From Polyangium spumosum (GTDB lineage: Bacteria; Myxococcota_A; Polyangia; Polyangiales; Polyangiaceae): a DNA stretch of 64,000 nt. Under the pieces are notes generated by a model. It did not search any database, was not told the DNA's origin, and worked only from the letters and a program-made list of their open reading frames with translations. This document shows, in pieces, positions 1 to 51,251 of this stretch. The position numbers and the translations under genes are program-made. Each line of letters begins with the position of its first letter. The first letter of the stretch is position 1. Where the stretch lies: contig NZ_WJIE01000008.1 in assembly GCF_009649845.1 (NCBI RefSeq), positions 1 through 64,000 of the forward strand, written 5' to 3'.

Positions 1-2
1 GA

Positions 3-374
3 CAGCCGCTCTCGATCGCGATGCAGCTACGCTACGAGAGTCATCACGTCGCGTTCGGCCGGCCCGTGAGTCTCAACATCAATGCCAACCTGGGGGAGAG
101 GTCGGAGCCGACGTGGCCGAGGAACCTGATGATTGCGAGCGGGGTGGGGATGGGGCTGGGTCTCGGGGGGCTCGTCACGGGGGTCGTCTTGCGGGACGAG
201 ACGCCCGGCAACCCGTGGACAGGCGTGGCTGTTGGGGGTGGGATCTTGTCAGCTCTATCCGTGACCGGCCTCATCATCGGCATCGCGAGCCGTCCTACTC
301 CGCCCAATGTCATCATTCAGCCCCAGGTCTCGAACGACGGGGGCGGCATCGGGGTCAGCGGCGTGATTCCGTAG
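3..374 (+). CDS. C-terminal end of a membrane-associated protein (partial)
   Basis: The reading frame is open back to the window edge, so this is the tail of a longer gene; the Met codon at 21 need not be the start. Counting from that Met, two glycine-rich hydrophobic stretches (about residues 36-57 and 68-90) look like a pair of membrane helices, followed by a short hydrophilic tail. The same layout, a hydrophilic segment followed by two Gly-rich helices, ends the TPR-PEGA protein at 18950..19894, so this could be the end of a similar envelope protein. That is inference; no catalytic motif is visible. Confidence 0.6.
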   Translation, partial: QPLSIAMQLRYESHHVAFGRPVSLNINANLGERSEPTWPRNLMIASGVGMGLGLGGLVTGVVLRDETPGNPWTGVAVGGGILSALSVTGLIIGIASRPTPPNVIIQPQVSNDGGGIGVSGVIP

Positions 375-391
375 GGGCGATCGGCGGGGTG

Positions 392-545
392 CTGAGCATT
401 GGTTTCATCGGGCAAGCGCTTCGCTGGGGCGTTGCCCCAGGCCCCACCAGGGGCTGTCCGCCCCTGGACCTGGACCAGCCAGGGGCTGGACCCAACGTCG
501 ATGAACTGCGCTCCGCGCAGTTCATCGAACAGGCCCGGCCAAGAC
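392..545 (+). repeat. Four-hairpin intergenic element, copy A
   Basis: Four successive perfect hairpins: H1 arms 425-430/434-439, H2 arms 447-454/460-467, H3 arms 475-480/484-489, H4 arms 498-511/515-528 (14-bp stem, 3-base loop TCC, core CTGCGC/GCGCAG). Copy B (603..755, opposite strand) and copy C (49343..49470) show the same four hairpins in the same order with different but complementary arms. It starts just after the upstream gene ends; copies A and B face each other across about 57 bases (546-602) in which I see nothing else. Function unknown: a terminator-like or REP/MITE-like element is possible. Confidence 0.8.
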
Positions 546-602
546 TGACGACGCCCCTGCCAGTCAAGACAGCCGCGCTGCGGGTTCTGCCGGCGACGCG
601 GC

Positions 603-755
603 CTCTTCGCCGGCCTGTTTGAAAAACTGCGCGGAGCGCAGTTTTTCAACCCCCGGTCCAGGGCTTGCCCTGGCGCGGGTCGAGGGGCGCGTAGCCCCCG
701 CGGGGTCCGGGGCAGCGCCCCGGCTCTGCGCCTGCCCGATGAGACCCATGCTCAG
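603..755 (-). repeat. Four-hairpin intergenic element, copy B (inverted relative to A)
   Basis: Read on the minus strand this parallels copy A from its first shared block (CTGAGCAT) to the block after H4 (AACAGGCC). Plus-strand hairpin arms: H4 619-632/636-649 (14 bp, 3-base loop), H3 658-664/667-673, H2 684-688/694-698, H1 707-713/717-723. Several stem positions differ from copy A on both arms at once, so pairing is kept. The element lies between a plus-strand gene end and the 3' end of a minus-strand tRNA gene. No coding potential is supported between 375 and 801. Confidence 0.8.
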
Positions 756-801
756 GGCCGTGCCTGGTCCGGGGTGAAGGGGGCTGTATGCCCCCCTCAG
801 G

Positions 802-875
802 CACGCCCGGCAGGACTCGAACCTGCGACCCGCGGCTTAGAAGGCCGCCGCTCTATCCAGCTGAGCTACGGGCGC
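802..875 (-). tRNA. tRNA-Arg (anticodon TCT)
   Basis: The minus strand folds as a complete 74-nt tRNA: acceptor stem GCGCCCG with CGGGCGT (a terminal G-U pair), D arm beginning TAGCTCAGC, anticodon stem GCGGC/GCCGC with loop CTTCTAA giving anticodon TCT, and T arm GCAGG/CCTGC with TTCGAGT. The discriminator base is G and CCA is not encoded. It reads AGA codons, which are rare in this GC-rich genome. Confidence 0.95.
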
Positions 876-922
876 TCGCTTTCGCGTTCGCTCGCGAGCA
901 TAAACGGTCGCGGGCCGCCTGC

Positions 923-1681
923 CTAGATCGATCCGATCTCCGCCGTCGTCGCCGTCCGACCGACCTGCTCGTCCGTGCGACCAAACCGGCGCTGCCGGCG
1001 CGCGTAGAACGCGAGCGCGTCGTCCAGCGTCGCCTCCGAGAAGTCGGGCCAGAGCGTCTCCGTGAAGAAGAGCTCCGCGAACGCTGCCTCGAACGGCAGG
1101 AAGTCGCTCAGCCGTTGCTCGCCGCCCGTGCGGATCACGAGGTCCGCGTCCGGCAGCTCGCTCGTGCTCAGGAAGCGACGCACCGACACCGGGTCGATGT
1201 CCTCCGGCAAGAGCAGGCCCGCCCGCGCCTGCGCCGCCACCGCGCGCATCGCGTTCACCATGTCGCGACGGCCGCCGTAGTTCAGCGCCAGCGCCAGCGT
1301 CATCGACGTCCCGCCCGCCGTGTCCGCGATGAGCCGCTCCGTCGCCTTTCGCGTCGCCGTCGGGACCTCGTCGTCGATGTCCCCCACCACGACCACACGC
1401 ACCCCACGCGAGACCAGCTCGTCGTGCGCGTCCTCCGCGAACTCCCGGCAGATGCGCATGAGGTTGTCCACCTCCTCCGCCGGCCGGCTCCAGTTCGCCG
1501 CGCTGAAGGCGTAGACCGTCAGCACCGGGATCTTGCGCTCGTGACAGGCGCGCGCCGCGAGACGCACCTTGTGCACCCCGCTCTCGTGACCCTTCGTGCG
1601 AGGGAGCCCGCGCGACGTGGCCCAGCGGCCGTTGCCGTCGAGGATGATCGCGATGTGCCGAGGGAGCGTGCGTTCGTTCAT
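923..1681 (-). CDS. uppS: Undecaprenyl diphosphate synthase (cis-prenyltransferase)
   Basis: It condenses isopentenyl diphosphate onto farnesyl diphosphate with cis geometry to make the C55 lipid carrier used for peptidoglycan and polysaccharide assembly. The 252-residue product has the family signature DGNGRWA at residues 15-21, with catalytic Asp15, then NYGGRRDMVNAM in the middle and RTGGEQRLSDFLPF near the C-terminus. The start at 1681 is chosen because it gives normal family length and puts the DGNGRWA motif near the N-terminus; upstream codons in this frame run through intergenic sequence. A partner such as cdsA, often next to uppS, is not visible here. Confidence 0.95.
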   Translation of the reverse strand: MNERTLPRHIAIILDGNGRWATSRGLPRTKGHESGVHKVRLAARACHERKIPVLTVYAFSAANWSRPAEEVDNLMRICREFAEDAHDELVSRGVRVVVVGDIDDEVPTATRKATERLIADTAGGTSMTLALALNYGGRRDMVNAMRAVAAQARAGLLLPEDIDPVSVRRFLSTSELPDADLVIRTGGEQRLSDFLPFEAAFAELFFTETLWPDFSEATLDDALAFYARRQRRFGRTDEQVGRTATTAEIGSI

Positions 1682-1809
1682 GGGATGCCTCGAGATTGCG
1701 GCCAGAGGATGCACCATACACGCACGCTCGTCCACGAAGCGGCCATGGTGCATTCGTGGAGCCTCCATGGAGAACGCACACACGAGAAGCGTGGCGAGTG
1801 TGGATTTTG

Positions 1810-3191
1810 TTACAGGATCTTCGCGGCCGGGAGCGTGACGCGGAACGTGACCTCGGGGGGGCCGCTCGCGGCGCACTCCGCCGAGCCGCTGTGCGCCTCG
1901 GCGATGGCGCGGACGATGGCGAGGCCGAGGCCCGTGCCGCCGTTCTCCACGCGGGTCGTGACGAAGCGCCGGAACAGGCGGCCGGCGACGTGCGGGTGGA
2001 TGCGGCCGCGGCTGCGGACGGTGAAGCGGACCTCGTCGCCGTCTCGCACGAGCGAGACGTGGATGACTTCGCCAGGCTCCCCATGGGTCACGGCGTTGTC
2101 GAGCAGGTTCTCGAGGGCCCGCGAGAGCCAGAGGGCGCTGCCGCGGACGGTGACCGCGCCGGTGGTGGAGACGTCCACGAGGGCGCCTCGCTCGCGCGCG
2201 AGCGCCGCGGCGTCCCGGGCAAGCTTGGCGAGGTCGACGACGGCGGCGTCCTCGACGCCACGCGCCTCGATCCGCGCGAGGTTCAGGAGGTCGCCGAGCA
2301 AGGCCTCGATGCGCTCGGTCGCTTGCTGGATGCGGCCGACGAAACGCGCGGCCTCCTCCGGCTCCTCGAGGGCGCCGTCGGCGAGGACCTCGGCGCTCGC
2401 GCGGATGGCCGCGACAGGGTTCTTGAGCTCGTGCGAGAGGTCGGCCGCGAAGGTCTCGACGAAGGGGCGGCCCTCGAGCTGGCGGCGCATGGAGTCGATG
2501 GCACGCGAGAGGCGCTGGACCTCGCGGCCAAAGGCCGGCGGCGGCGGGGCGCGGCGCTCGCCTTCGCTGACGCGGACGGCAAAATCGGTGAGGGCCTCGA
2601 TGGGGCGCGCGATGGAGCGGCCGATGAGGACGGCGGCAGCAGCGGCAGCAGCGCCGAGGACGAGGCTGATCGCGAGGATGGTGGGCGCGAAGTCGGCGAG
2701 GGTGCGGACGATGACGAGGGTCGGCTTGACGACCTGGACCTGGCCGACGACGAGGCCGTGGACGAGGATGGGCGCCGTGACGAAGACGGTGCCCGGCTCG
2801 CCCTGGGCAGGGCCGGCGCGGAAGACGGGGCGGCCGTCGGGGTCGAGCAGGGAGAAGTGGATGGCGTCGGGATCGGCGGAGCGGGTGATGCGGCGGCCGA
2901 CGTCGGCGAGGGAGGCGCCGCGGGCGTCGAGCTCGCCGCCGACGACCGCAGCGATGGCCGCAGCCTCGTCCCGCGCGGCGTCCTCGGCGAGCAGGGTGGC
3001 GCGCGCCTCGATGCGATCGAGGACGAGCAGGCCGAGGCCAAACGCGAAGGCGCCGACGATGCCGGCGAGGGCGAGGAAGACCTGGAGGCGGATGCTGGTG
3101 CCGCGGGTGCGAGCGCGGACGAGGCGCGAGGCGATGTAGGCGACGAAGAGGATGAGGCCGACGGCGGAGGCGGCGGCGACGAGGAGGCGGA

Positions 3192-49034: not shown

Positions 49035-49340
49035 ATGACGAACAAGACCAGCTACACGAAACACATCGAGATGTCGGCCGACGAGATGGCCAACCTGGCC
49101 GTCTGGGATCGCGCCGTCCTCCGCGCCTGGCAGGACCCCGAGTTCCGCCAGAAGCTGATCGACGACCCGAACAAGGTCCTCGCCGACCTCGGCTTCAAGA
49201 TCCCCCCCGGCGTGCGCTTCGTGGTCGCAGAAAACACCGCCGAACGCCGCCACATCGTGCTGCCCGCAGCCCCCTCCGGGGACGTGTCCGTCAAGCCGCT
49301 CGATATCTCGCCGCTGCACGACTACGACCCGGGGTTCTGA
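49035..49340 (+). CDS. NHLP-type RiPP precursor candidate
   Basis: A 101-residue protein with the nitrile-hydratase-alpha-like leader pattern (TIGR03793-type): WQDPEFRQKLIDDPNKVLAD, LGFKIPPGVRFVVAENTAER and RHIVLP, ending near residue 77. The remaining about 24 residues (AAPSGDVSVKPLDISP, then LHDYDPGF) would be the core: Asp/Pro-rich, no Cys, no Trp, one Tyr. There is no clear GG cleavage site. No LanM, YcaO or radical-SAM enzyme is adjacent, so the modification type would differ from the known classes. It could also be a non-RiPP protein of this family. Confidence 0.7.
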   Translation: MTNKTSYTKHIEMSADEMANLAVWDRAVLRAWQDPEFRQKLIDDPNKVLADLGFKIPPGVRFVVAENTAERRHIVLPAAPSGDVSVKPLDISPLHDYDPGF

Positions 49341-49342
49341 GA

Positions 49343-49470
49343 AGAGGGACGGGGGTTTCCACCCCCGAACCCCCGACCAGGGGTTGTCCACCCCTGGACC
49401 CGGACCAGGCACGGCCTGGACCGAAAGTGGATGAACTGCGCGATGCGCAGTTCATCCAGCAGGGTGACGT
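49343..49470 (+). repeat. Four-hairpin intergenic element, copy C
   Basis: Same order of hairpins as copies A and B: H1 arms 49350-49356/49361-49367, H2 49377-49384/49390-49397, H3 49405-49410/49414-49419, H4 49428-49441/49445-49458 (14-bp stem; loop GAT). Stem sequences differ from A and B on both arms in parallel. It sits exactly between the convergent ends of the precursor gene and the S53 peptidase gene, so it may serve as their shared terminator. Confidence 0.85.
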
Positions 49471-51251
49471 CAGGGTCGCTTGTCTCGCCGGGTGACGAGC
49501 TCGATGAGGCGCGTGACGTCAGGGACGCCGAGCCCCGTCGCAGGGTCCCAGCCAGGGGCCGCCGAGTAACCAGACAGTCTGTGGATCACCGCCTTGCCGT
49601 GCGCGTTGAGCACGTTCATGGCGACGTCCGTGCTGCCCTCGGAGATCTCGCGGAACGGGGAGGCTTTCTCCTTGCGCAACGCGTAGAGGAGCGGATTGAC
49701 GAACCCCACGCGCCCAAGCCCAGCCGCCCGGCGCGCCTGGTTCATGAGCGCCACGATCGCCGCCCAGATCGGCGCAGCCACGCTCGTGCCACCCGCATAG
49801 TCGACCCACTGCCCACACGCGACAGCCTGGTACCCCTGCATCGTGAGCGGCTGGCCCGGCGCACGTTGCACGGCGGAGCCAGAGGCCATGAGCGAGACGT
49901 CAGGGAAGCCGCGACCGTAAGGCACGACGGCAGGTTCTCCCTCGCCACGCGCGTACCAGCCCTTCATCGCGTCGGTTTGCCATTTCGGGACGGGCACCTC
50001 GCGCGAGAAGCCGCCGCTCGAAGCGAGCCGAACGAAATGAAGGACCCGGCCGAGACCAGGCGGAGGCGGCCCGCTCCAAGCGATCTCCGTGAGCGGCGCG
50101 CGACCGGTGATCATCGTGCCGCCGACCGAGAGCACGCGCTCCTCGACCGCAGGAAAGACCCCGTGGGGCCAGGGCGCGTCACCGACGTACCTGCCGTCCT
50201 TGATCGTGCGCGGCACGCCGTCGAACGCGCCCCAGTCGCCCGCCGCGCTGATCACCGTCACGCCGATCGCCGCGGCCTGATCGAGCAGGCCGCTCACGAC
50301 CCTGCGCCCGTGGACGCGGTAGTAGCTGCGCTCGGGCGTGATCCAGCTCGTCGACACGATCGTCGGCGCGTTCTCGCGATCGCCGATCACCTTGAGCAGG
50401 AACGTCGCCCAGGGGTCGGCGATCACCATCGGGTCGACGAAGTACACGAGGATCCGCGCGCCCGGCGCCATCGCGGACGCCCACTGGACCGTCATCGCAG
50501 CCTCGAGCGTGTAGAGCTTGTTCGCGCTCGTCACCTTCGAGGGGCGTGATCCCACGTGGTACGTCTTGATCTCGGGCGGACGCGGGATCCCATGCGCGTC
50601 CCAGAACGTGAAGAGGTCACTCTCCTCGAGCGCGCCGCCGAGCATGAGCAGCGCGATCGTCTCGCCCGAGCCGTCGAGCTCCGTCATCGAGGGGAAGCGG
50701 TAGATCTCGCGCACGTCCGCGGGCGTGAGGCCAAAGCCGGGCTCGGGCAGGGTCTCGCGCGCGCCCTCGAGCGTGGGGAACTGCATCGGGTGCTCGGCGC
50801 CCGCGTCCGCGACCATCGTGCTGCGCGCGCGGTTGCCGCTCTGCCGGACCTTCACGGACTGCACGTACTGCGAGAGCTGCCGCGGGATCGGCCACTCGAC
50901 GGGCGTGTGCGTGCGCTCGTCCTTCTCGCTCTCGTCGAGCCAGCGCCGGCACTCGGCGCCGAACGTGCGCCCCACGGCCTCCTTCGTGGTCTTCACGAAG
51001 ATCGTCTGTCCCGACACGCTACGCACGTCCATGTGCGGCATGCCGTGCTCCTCCAGCCACGAGAGCACGGCGCGGCGCTCGTCCGAGGGGAGCACGACGA
51101 ACTTGCGCAGCTCCTCGCGCTCGAGGTGCGGCGCGCGCTTGTGCTCGTCCGGGTGGCTCGCCGCCTCCGCCACGCGGCGGATCGACTCGCGATCGTGCTC
51201 GTGCAGGACGAAGACGAGCGTGAGCTCTTCCTGTTGCGCGTGGGCGCTCAA
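49470..51251 (-). CDS. S53 sedolisin-family peptidase with altered catalytic residue
   Basis: A 593-residue subtilisin-like acid peptidase: N-terminal pro-kumamolisin domain (about 8-170), then the catalytic domain with Glu250 (LEAAMTVQW), oxyanion Asp339 (ISAAGDWG) and nucleophile Ser490 (GGTSVAAP). The Asp that follows the Glu by four residues in kumamolisin is Thr254 here. The start is TTG 51251, overlapping the halogenase-like gene's stop by 4 bases. No signal peptide is seen. A role in precursor cleavage is plausible, but reduced activity is possible. Confidence 0.85.
   Translation of the reverse strand: MSAHAQQEELTLVFVLHEHDRESIRRVAEAASHPDEHKRAPHLEREELRKFVVLPSDERRAVLSWLEEHGMPHMDVRSVSGQTIFVKTTKEAVGRTFGAECRRWLDESEKDERTHTPVEWPIPRQLSQYVQSVKVRQSGNRARSTMVADAGAEHPMQFPTLEGARETLPEPGFGLTPADVREIYRFPSMTELDGSGETIALLMLGGALEESDLFTFWDAHGIPRPPEIKTYHVGSRPSKVTSANKLYTLEAAMTVQWASAMAPGARILVYFVDPMVIADPWATFLLKVIGDRENAPTIVSTSWITPERSYYRVHGRRVVSGLLDQAAAIGVTVISAAGDWGAFDGVPRTIKDGRYVGDAPWPHGVFPAVEERVLSVGGTMITGRAPLTEIAWSGPPPPGLGRVLHFVRLASSGGFSREVPVPKWQTDAMKGWYARGEGEPAVVPYGRGFPDVSLMASGSAVQRAPGQPLTMQGYQAVACGQWVDYAGGTSVAAPIWAAIVALMNQARRAAGLGRVGFVNPLLYALRKEKASPFREISEGSTDVAMNVLNAHGKAVIHRLSGYSAAPGWDPATGLGVPDVTRLIELVTRRDKRP

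Follow-up and report, generated by a model that had tools for sequence, protein, structure and literature searches.

A probable family of IS50/Tn5-type MITEs with four-hairpin arms in Polyangium

Results

The element at positions 392–755 of the window, by which we mean the entire stretch of 64,000 nucleotides analysed from the start of contig NZ_WJIE01000008.1 of Polyangium spumosum, is a 364-bp unit with a terminal inverted repeat (TIR) at each end and two facing arms of four hairpins. We propose, with a probability of roughly two thirds, that it belongs to a family of MITEs of the IS50/Tn5 type in Polyangium, unusual for its four-hairpin arms, in which the third hairpin is itself an insertion target and the arms outlast the TIRs. 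The unit is short, has TIRs at both ends and contains no transposase gene, as is the case for MITEs.

The whole non-autonomous unit (locus L039) is bounded by an 18-bp inverted repeat pair. The left TIR, CTGAGCATTGGTTTCATC, is located at 392–409 on the plus strand and has one mismatch to the TIR pattern. The right TIR, CTGAGCATGGGTCTCATC in its minus-strand reading, is located at 738–755 and agrees with the pattern. The preliminary description of this region had reported two separate copies, A and B, of a four-hairpin element, which face each other and carry their hairpins in the same order. Both copies and the common order are found, but since 392–755 are the exact ends of the inverted repeat pair, A and B have to be regarded as the halves of one unit. 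The two arms are inverted duplicates of each other, with 76% identity over 70 nt.

Arm A spans 424–528 on the plus strand and arm B 619–723 on the minus strand. From the outer end inwards, each consists of the hairpins H1 (GGGGC..GCCCC), H2 (CCAGGGGC..GCCCCTGG type), H3 (GGACCAGGC..GCCTGGACC type) and H4. In arm A, H1 (424–440) was assigned by eye and pairs as in the covariation alignment, the 8-bp H2 (447–467) corresponds to inverted-repeat pair I20, H3 (472–492), which harbours IS copies at other loci, was assigned by eye, and H4 (498–528), with a 14-bp stem and a 3-base loop, corresponds to pair I7. In arm B, H4 (619–649) corresponds to pair I8 and contains A5/T5 within its stem; H3 (655–676), the bulged H2 (681–700) and H1 (707–723) were assigned by eye and from the arm match at this position. 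The arms are separated by a central spacer at 529–618, which is found in other facing pairs too. The last stem had been described as always having 14 bp with a CTGCGC/GCGCAG core. In both window arms the core, the stem length and the 3-base loop are exactly as described, but stem 4 varies across the family, with CCGCGC cores in some arms and a shorter stem at the ortholog in the Polyangium genome G003.

The window unit has no 9-bp target duplication, and its flanks differ at 4 of 9 bases. Its right end lies at the position within H3 at which IS copies insert elsewhere, the flank GGACCAGGCACGGCC adjoining the TIR, and the same junction recurs at three other loci (L319, L323 and L325). The adjacent sequence at 756–799 on the minus strand, which adjoins the tRNA-Arg, is a probable remnant of an older arm and was recognised by eye as half of an H3 followed by an H2-like hairpin. 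The left flank of the unit does not resemble the H3 remnant on the right, so its other half has been lost or exchanged.

Two tRNA predictions lie nearby. Within 756–875, the tRNA-Arg (TCT) has the H2-H3-like arm remnant as its 3′ side, as if the arm were its terminator. A tRNA-Gly predicted by ARAGORN at 1074–1167 falls within a called gene on the minus strand (923–1681) and is probably false.

The covariance-model search for further copies, which had been suggested as a check, was performed with a model built from 24 arms at a threshold of E 1e-3. It identified 80 arms in the 10.8-Mb genome of P. spumosum, 48 of them single and the others forming 16 facing pairs. The five other Polyangium genomes gave at least 129 arm matches each. 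The remainder of the 30 genomes searched, 24 that represent other genera in the family and order, gave no match. In a sample of the phylum, for which stricter filters were applied than in the genus search, the model matched 2 of 140 genomes, namely P. spumosum and, weakly, G125. The exact H1-H2 pattern occurred in only one of 282 phylum genomes, again P. spumosum. A scan of genomes from named species returned only Polyangium among the matches listed, and a search of plasmids with arm A gave no match. The arms were the main search key, and copies that keep their TIRs and have lost their arms would therefore be under-counted. The statement that the element matches no named family also stands: tRNA is the only family to reach the Rfam gathering threshold in the window, and the element itself gives just three weak sub-threshold matches, at 370–800. 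No description of the element was found in the available parts of the open-licence literature on myxobacterial and Polyangium repeats, MITEs, IS targets and terminators, a body of work outside which subscription-journal papers mostly fall.

The weak match in G125 is a GC-rich array resembling H1-H2. An H1-like GC hairpin followed by ACCCC is present in a distant phylum genome (L350, 1475–1550), where it is accompanied by an H2-like hairpin, and the pattern scan of viral sequences returned four contigs (L358–L361) that have the H1-like hairpin in other surroundings, with other sequence following ACCCC. This combination may be a recurrent theme across the distant genome and the viral contigs.

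The TIR pattern is present in all six Polyangium genomes, with eight matches in P. spumosum, and the backwards control of the pattern had no match in any of the six. A candidate source of the corresponding transposase was found in G004, which contains four copies of a 1504-bp IS whose two TIRs match the TIR consensus of the element at 17 and 16 of 18 bases. Its open frame has 482 codons, and the 441-aa part from the chosen start was used for protein matches. This protein matches the IS4-family transposase model NF033590 (E 1.1e-75), PF01609 and the Tn5 dimerisation domain PF02281, and the Y-(2)-R-(3)-E-(6)-K signature can be read in it as YSQRWRIEDFFRTWK. Two of the four copies are flanked by perfect 9-bp duplications, one by a duplication with one mismatch and one by none. 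Members of the IS50 subgroup are 1350–1550 bp in length, with CW ends, 8-9-bp duplications and the same signature (PMC2266710). The 1504-bp IS agrees with Tn5/IS50 in its size, CT ends, 9-bp duplications, signature and Tn5 dimerisation domain. The window element differs from this subgroup in having no transposase; the hairpin arms are absent inside the ends of the 1504-bp IS, and the targets are often hairpins.

One copy of the partner IS, with 84% protein identity, is present in G001. No intact transposase was found in the genome of P. spumosum, in which only two pieces with 66% and 46% identity were detected; IS copies may be hidden at the contig ends of this assembly. In G002, a contig end is found at a distance of about 60-125 bases from many of the TIR matches (e.g. 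on C14, C15, C20, C40, C110 and C181), as if the assembly broke inside identical IS copies, and the IS copy number may thus be under-counted.

In total, 26 TIR-bounded units were considered, and 16 of them measure 344–392 bp and have no transposase gene. Perfect 9-bp target duplications flank nine units, perfect 10-bp duplications, recognised by eye, two (L327 and L285), and duplications with one mismatch four. The 11 units without a duplication include the window unit and three pairing artefacts or doubtful cases: L326, which is 80 bp long; L346 at 1391, where an IS that the count already includes was paired a second time; and L246, in which an IS was matched to a chance repeat lying inside. 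The hybrid L320, 1033 bp in length, has a TIR and an arm at one end and the 3′ end of the transposase gene and a TIR at the other, a composition that links the hairpin element with the IS. Taken from such sequence features, the mobility of the element is well supported. A further TIR-bounded unit of 2090 bp with a perfect 9-bp duplication in H3 is located at L319 1038–3127 (G004:C1:6314037-6316126). The gene called in it has about 500 codons (388–1881 of the unit) and does not resemble the transposase, and the unit is perhaps a cargo-bearing non-autonomous element.

High-copy arrays of intergenic hairpins that partly form facing pairs are also characteristic of REP/BIME families moved by Y1 (RAYT) transposases on single-stranded hairpins, and such a transposase had been put forward as a lead. 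This origin is hardly credible for the Polyangium family. Only two Y1 matches were found in the P. spumosum genome, one with an internal stop, and neither has an arm in its flanks of about 1.5 kb. The family also has TIRs and 9-bp duplications, and we know of no Y1 element that produces these.

The sites of insertion point to a preference for hairpins. For 13 units with a target duplication of at most one mismatch, a stem of at least 7 was found at the reconstructed empty site in 5 cases, compared with 7 of 543 control positions (P 1.2e-5). The target stems of L327 and L285, which are outside this count, measure 10 and 9. Three of the five hairpin targets are the H3 of the family itself: two of them are occupied by copies of the 1504-bp IS and one by the 2090-bp unit of L319, with the duplication GGCACGGCC. 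This shows, at the level of the reconstructed sites, that the targets are enriched for hairpins and that the family's own H3 is among them. A preference for palindromes has a precedent in the IS4-family element ISRm22 of Sinorhizobium, which was inserted at the axis of REP palindromes (PMC1525189).

Comparison of orthologous sites revealed both conserved and variable occupancy; from the 44 matches, eight with E values of 0.0011 to 0.0075, most of which run antisense over H4, had been removed beforehand. A single arm of the family lies in the window at 49,348–49,459 on the plus strand, between the convergent genes 49,035–49,340 (+) and 49,470–51,251 (−). An element is found between the same convergent genes in all six Polyangium genomes. 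It is a single arm in P. spumosum and G003, a facing pair of one type in G004 and G002, and a facing pair of another type in G005 and G001. By contrast with this occupied site, all three genomes comparable at G003 78217 lack the element and have the stop codons 3-4 nt apart. At G005 7274, where the element is accompanied by other sequence of about 600 bp, it is absent from all four comparable genomes. For G004 38527, the sole comparable genome, G002, has a different spacer of 117 nt. Two further empty sites (L256 compared with L271, and L263 with L188) were found among 11 pairs inspected from 292 flank-match rows, many of which repeat one site. The left and right flanks of L005, a pair between divergent genes, were not found together in the loci of the relatives. 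At L110, near 2487, the left flank of the arm has several further matches within its own locus, at 75-88%, which represents a diverged local repeat.

Relatives carry facing pairs at five sites that hold a single arm in P. spumosum, namely the window site at 49,348 (4 of 5 relatives), L060 (2/2), L015 (2/2), L087 (1/1) and L101 (1/1). Judged from these sequences, the single arms are therefore best read as former facing pairs that lost one arm. At the sixth single-arm site inspected, L104, no clear facing pair was seen in the relative (L239).

The relation between arms and TIRs allows a second order of events. The arms could be an older, genus-specific family of intergenic hairpins, of which some copies later gained IS50-type TIRs and the TIR-less arms spread by other means. 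A recognisable TIR is found on only 13 of the 80 P. spumosum arms, and the flanks of the other 67 contain no TIR trace (mean 8.16 of 18 bases, against 8.18 in control flanks; P 0.61). In addition, at TIR-less elements whose sites are empty in relatives, among them facing pairs, no duplication is visible by eye, and the H1-H2-like array occurs alone in a distant phylum genome. We nevertheless consider this order of events unlikely. The TIR-bounded units with duplications hold complete facing pairs, some TIR-less elements show TIR remnants by eye, and no second mobiliser was found in a search limited to Y1 transposases. An IS50/Tn5-type MITE family with eroding TIRs remains the preferred reading.

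The gene neighbourhood of the single arms is strongly biased. Of the single arms in P. spumosum with both neighbours known, 33 of 43 lie between convergent genes, compared with 43 of 292 element-free gene pairs (P 3e-16); these background pairs were drawn from six orthologous stretches that overlap and are hence not independent, and five further single arms with one unknown neighbour are outside the 43. The genes were called by a codon-score finder. In 21 of the 33 convergent cases both stop codons are at most 50 nt away. The facing pairs of P. spumosum are not enriched at convergent genes (3 of 15, with 5 divergent and 7 tandem). In the stretches from the five relatives, one of four single arms and nine of 14 facing pairs are convergent, four of these nine representing one orthologous site. 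At four loci (L094, L018, L055 and L025), the stop codon of a neighbouring gene overlaps a short GC-rich stretch just outside H1.

H4 together with the flanking T-rich sequence has the shape of a two-way intrinsic terminator. An H4 core was recognisable in 61 of the 80 arms, and the eight bases after this core contain on average 3.5 and 3.7 T on the two strands, against 1.2 expected, and 14 of the 61 have a run of at least four T; the 19 arms without a recognisable core were left out of this count. A simple terminator scan of window positions 1–2000 called neither H4. We infer a terminator function for the element from these features, and the arms perhaps act as two-way terminators.

The conservation of pairing in the arms is pronounced. 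On RNA folding, each window arm exceeds all 200 dinucleotide shuffles (z −5.66 and −3.41). In the alignment of the 80 P. spumosum arms (78 distinct rows), which was fitted to the structure, 97.3% of the cells are paired compared with 83.4% in shuffles, and 24 of 37 pairs show double-sided change. The covariation score is 0.343 against 0.098 in shuffles, none of 500 shuffles reaching it, and slid versions of the structure score at most 0.051. An unfitted MAFFT alignment of 24 arms displays the same trend, with double-sided change in 14 of 37 pairs and a score of 0.228 against 0.083 for shuffles; for one of its five measures, further pair types, 39 of 500 shuffles reached the value of the alignment. 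Across the 80 arms, 337 cells are changed on both sides of a pair and 24 on one side. The pairing-preserving changes noticed between copies A and B are thus confirmed far above controls. They had been taken as a sign of selection on structure as opposed to duplication; the first part is plausible, but the contrast with duplication is not supported for arms that are inverted duplicates within one TIR-bounded unit.

One-sided G-U steps are common where selection acts on a single RNA strand. Their scarcity here suggests DNA, the use of both strands, or a mutational process in which one stem side is copied onto the other. It is one of the observations against a structured non-coding or cis-regulatory RNA acting on one strand, for which the conserved four-hairpin fold could be taken as evidence. 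The arms also occur in both orientations relative to the neighbouring genes, show signs of DNA mobility and match no Rfam family at threshold, and a role as such an RNA is very improbable.

Selection on structure is a plausible cause of the pairing, to judge by the alignments. That so few changes are one-sided agrees with a constraint acting on DNA or on both strands, but also with palindrome-perfecting mutation or exchange between copies. Pairing could then be kept without selection, if template switching perfects the palindromes and copies exchange entire hairpins with each other. Copying of one stem side to its partner would be expected to give an excess of double-sided changes. Moreover, at one orthologous site where the flanking DNA has 82-92% identity, H3-H4 are of entirely different types. 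The retention of an element at one site in six of six genomes and the bias of single arms towards convergent gene ends speak rather for use, or at least tolerance, of the arms, with which this explanation is itself compatible. We regard an origin of the pairing without selection as doubtful.

Discussion

MITEs can be mobilised by transposases that recognise their TIRs (PMC3733652). We propose that an IS50-type transposase would move the hairpin-armed element in trans. Its insertion would split intergenic hairpins, some of which would be terminators. Both arms, each ending in a GC-rich palindrome with T-rich sequence on both strands, would then act as replacement two-way terminators, and this replacement could explain why insertion between genes is tolerated. 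Afterwards the TIRs would decay and one arm would often be deleted. Selection on pairing would retain the leftover four-hairpin arm where it lies between convergent genes. New copies would insert into the H3 of old copies and recombine with them, which would account for the mosaic of arm types. The fullest version of this scheme, which we offer tentatively and to which we give less than an even chance, is that the family attacks intergenic hairpins, carries replacement two-way terminators as its body and so swaps the host terminator. Convergent genes would in this case have the eroded single arms as their resident terminators, and the family's own H3 would let new copies overwrite old ones and renew the arms throughout the genus.

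Like the bacterial MITEs RUP, NEMIS, ERIC and Nezha, the element is short, TIR-bounded, non-coding, intergenic and strongly folding (PMC3733652). In the Polyangium family, each half of the element consists of four covarying hairpins in a fixed order, and its own H3 is targeted by the IS and related units. We know of neither ordered covarying hairpin arrays nor targeting of an own hairpin in RUP, NEMIS, ERIC or Nezha. ISRm22 likewise represents an IS4-family element at the axis of palindromic intergenic repeats; it has 6-bp direct repeats and resides in REP units of 21-65 bases (PMC1525189), whereas the direct repeats in Polyangium have 9 bp and the target repeat is carried by the TIR-bounded relatives of the IS itself. 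With the REP/BIME sequences and their RAYT proteins the element shares the many intergenic palindromic copies in alternating orientation (PMC2817692, PMC3733652). It is distinguished from them by its TIRs and 9-bp duplications, and no link to Y1 was found in the P. spumosum genome.

The near-pure Watson-Crick covariation of the arms provides a test case of how such covariation arises in mobile DNA. Searches for structured RNAs that are based on covariation could mistake a hairpin-armed family of this kind for an RNA family. If the proposed scheme is true, a mobile element would have become harmless, and perhaps even useful, through bringing with it the signal that its insertion destroys, and wholesale replacement of the terminators between convergent genes would be possible.
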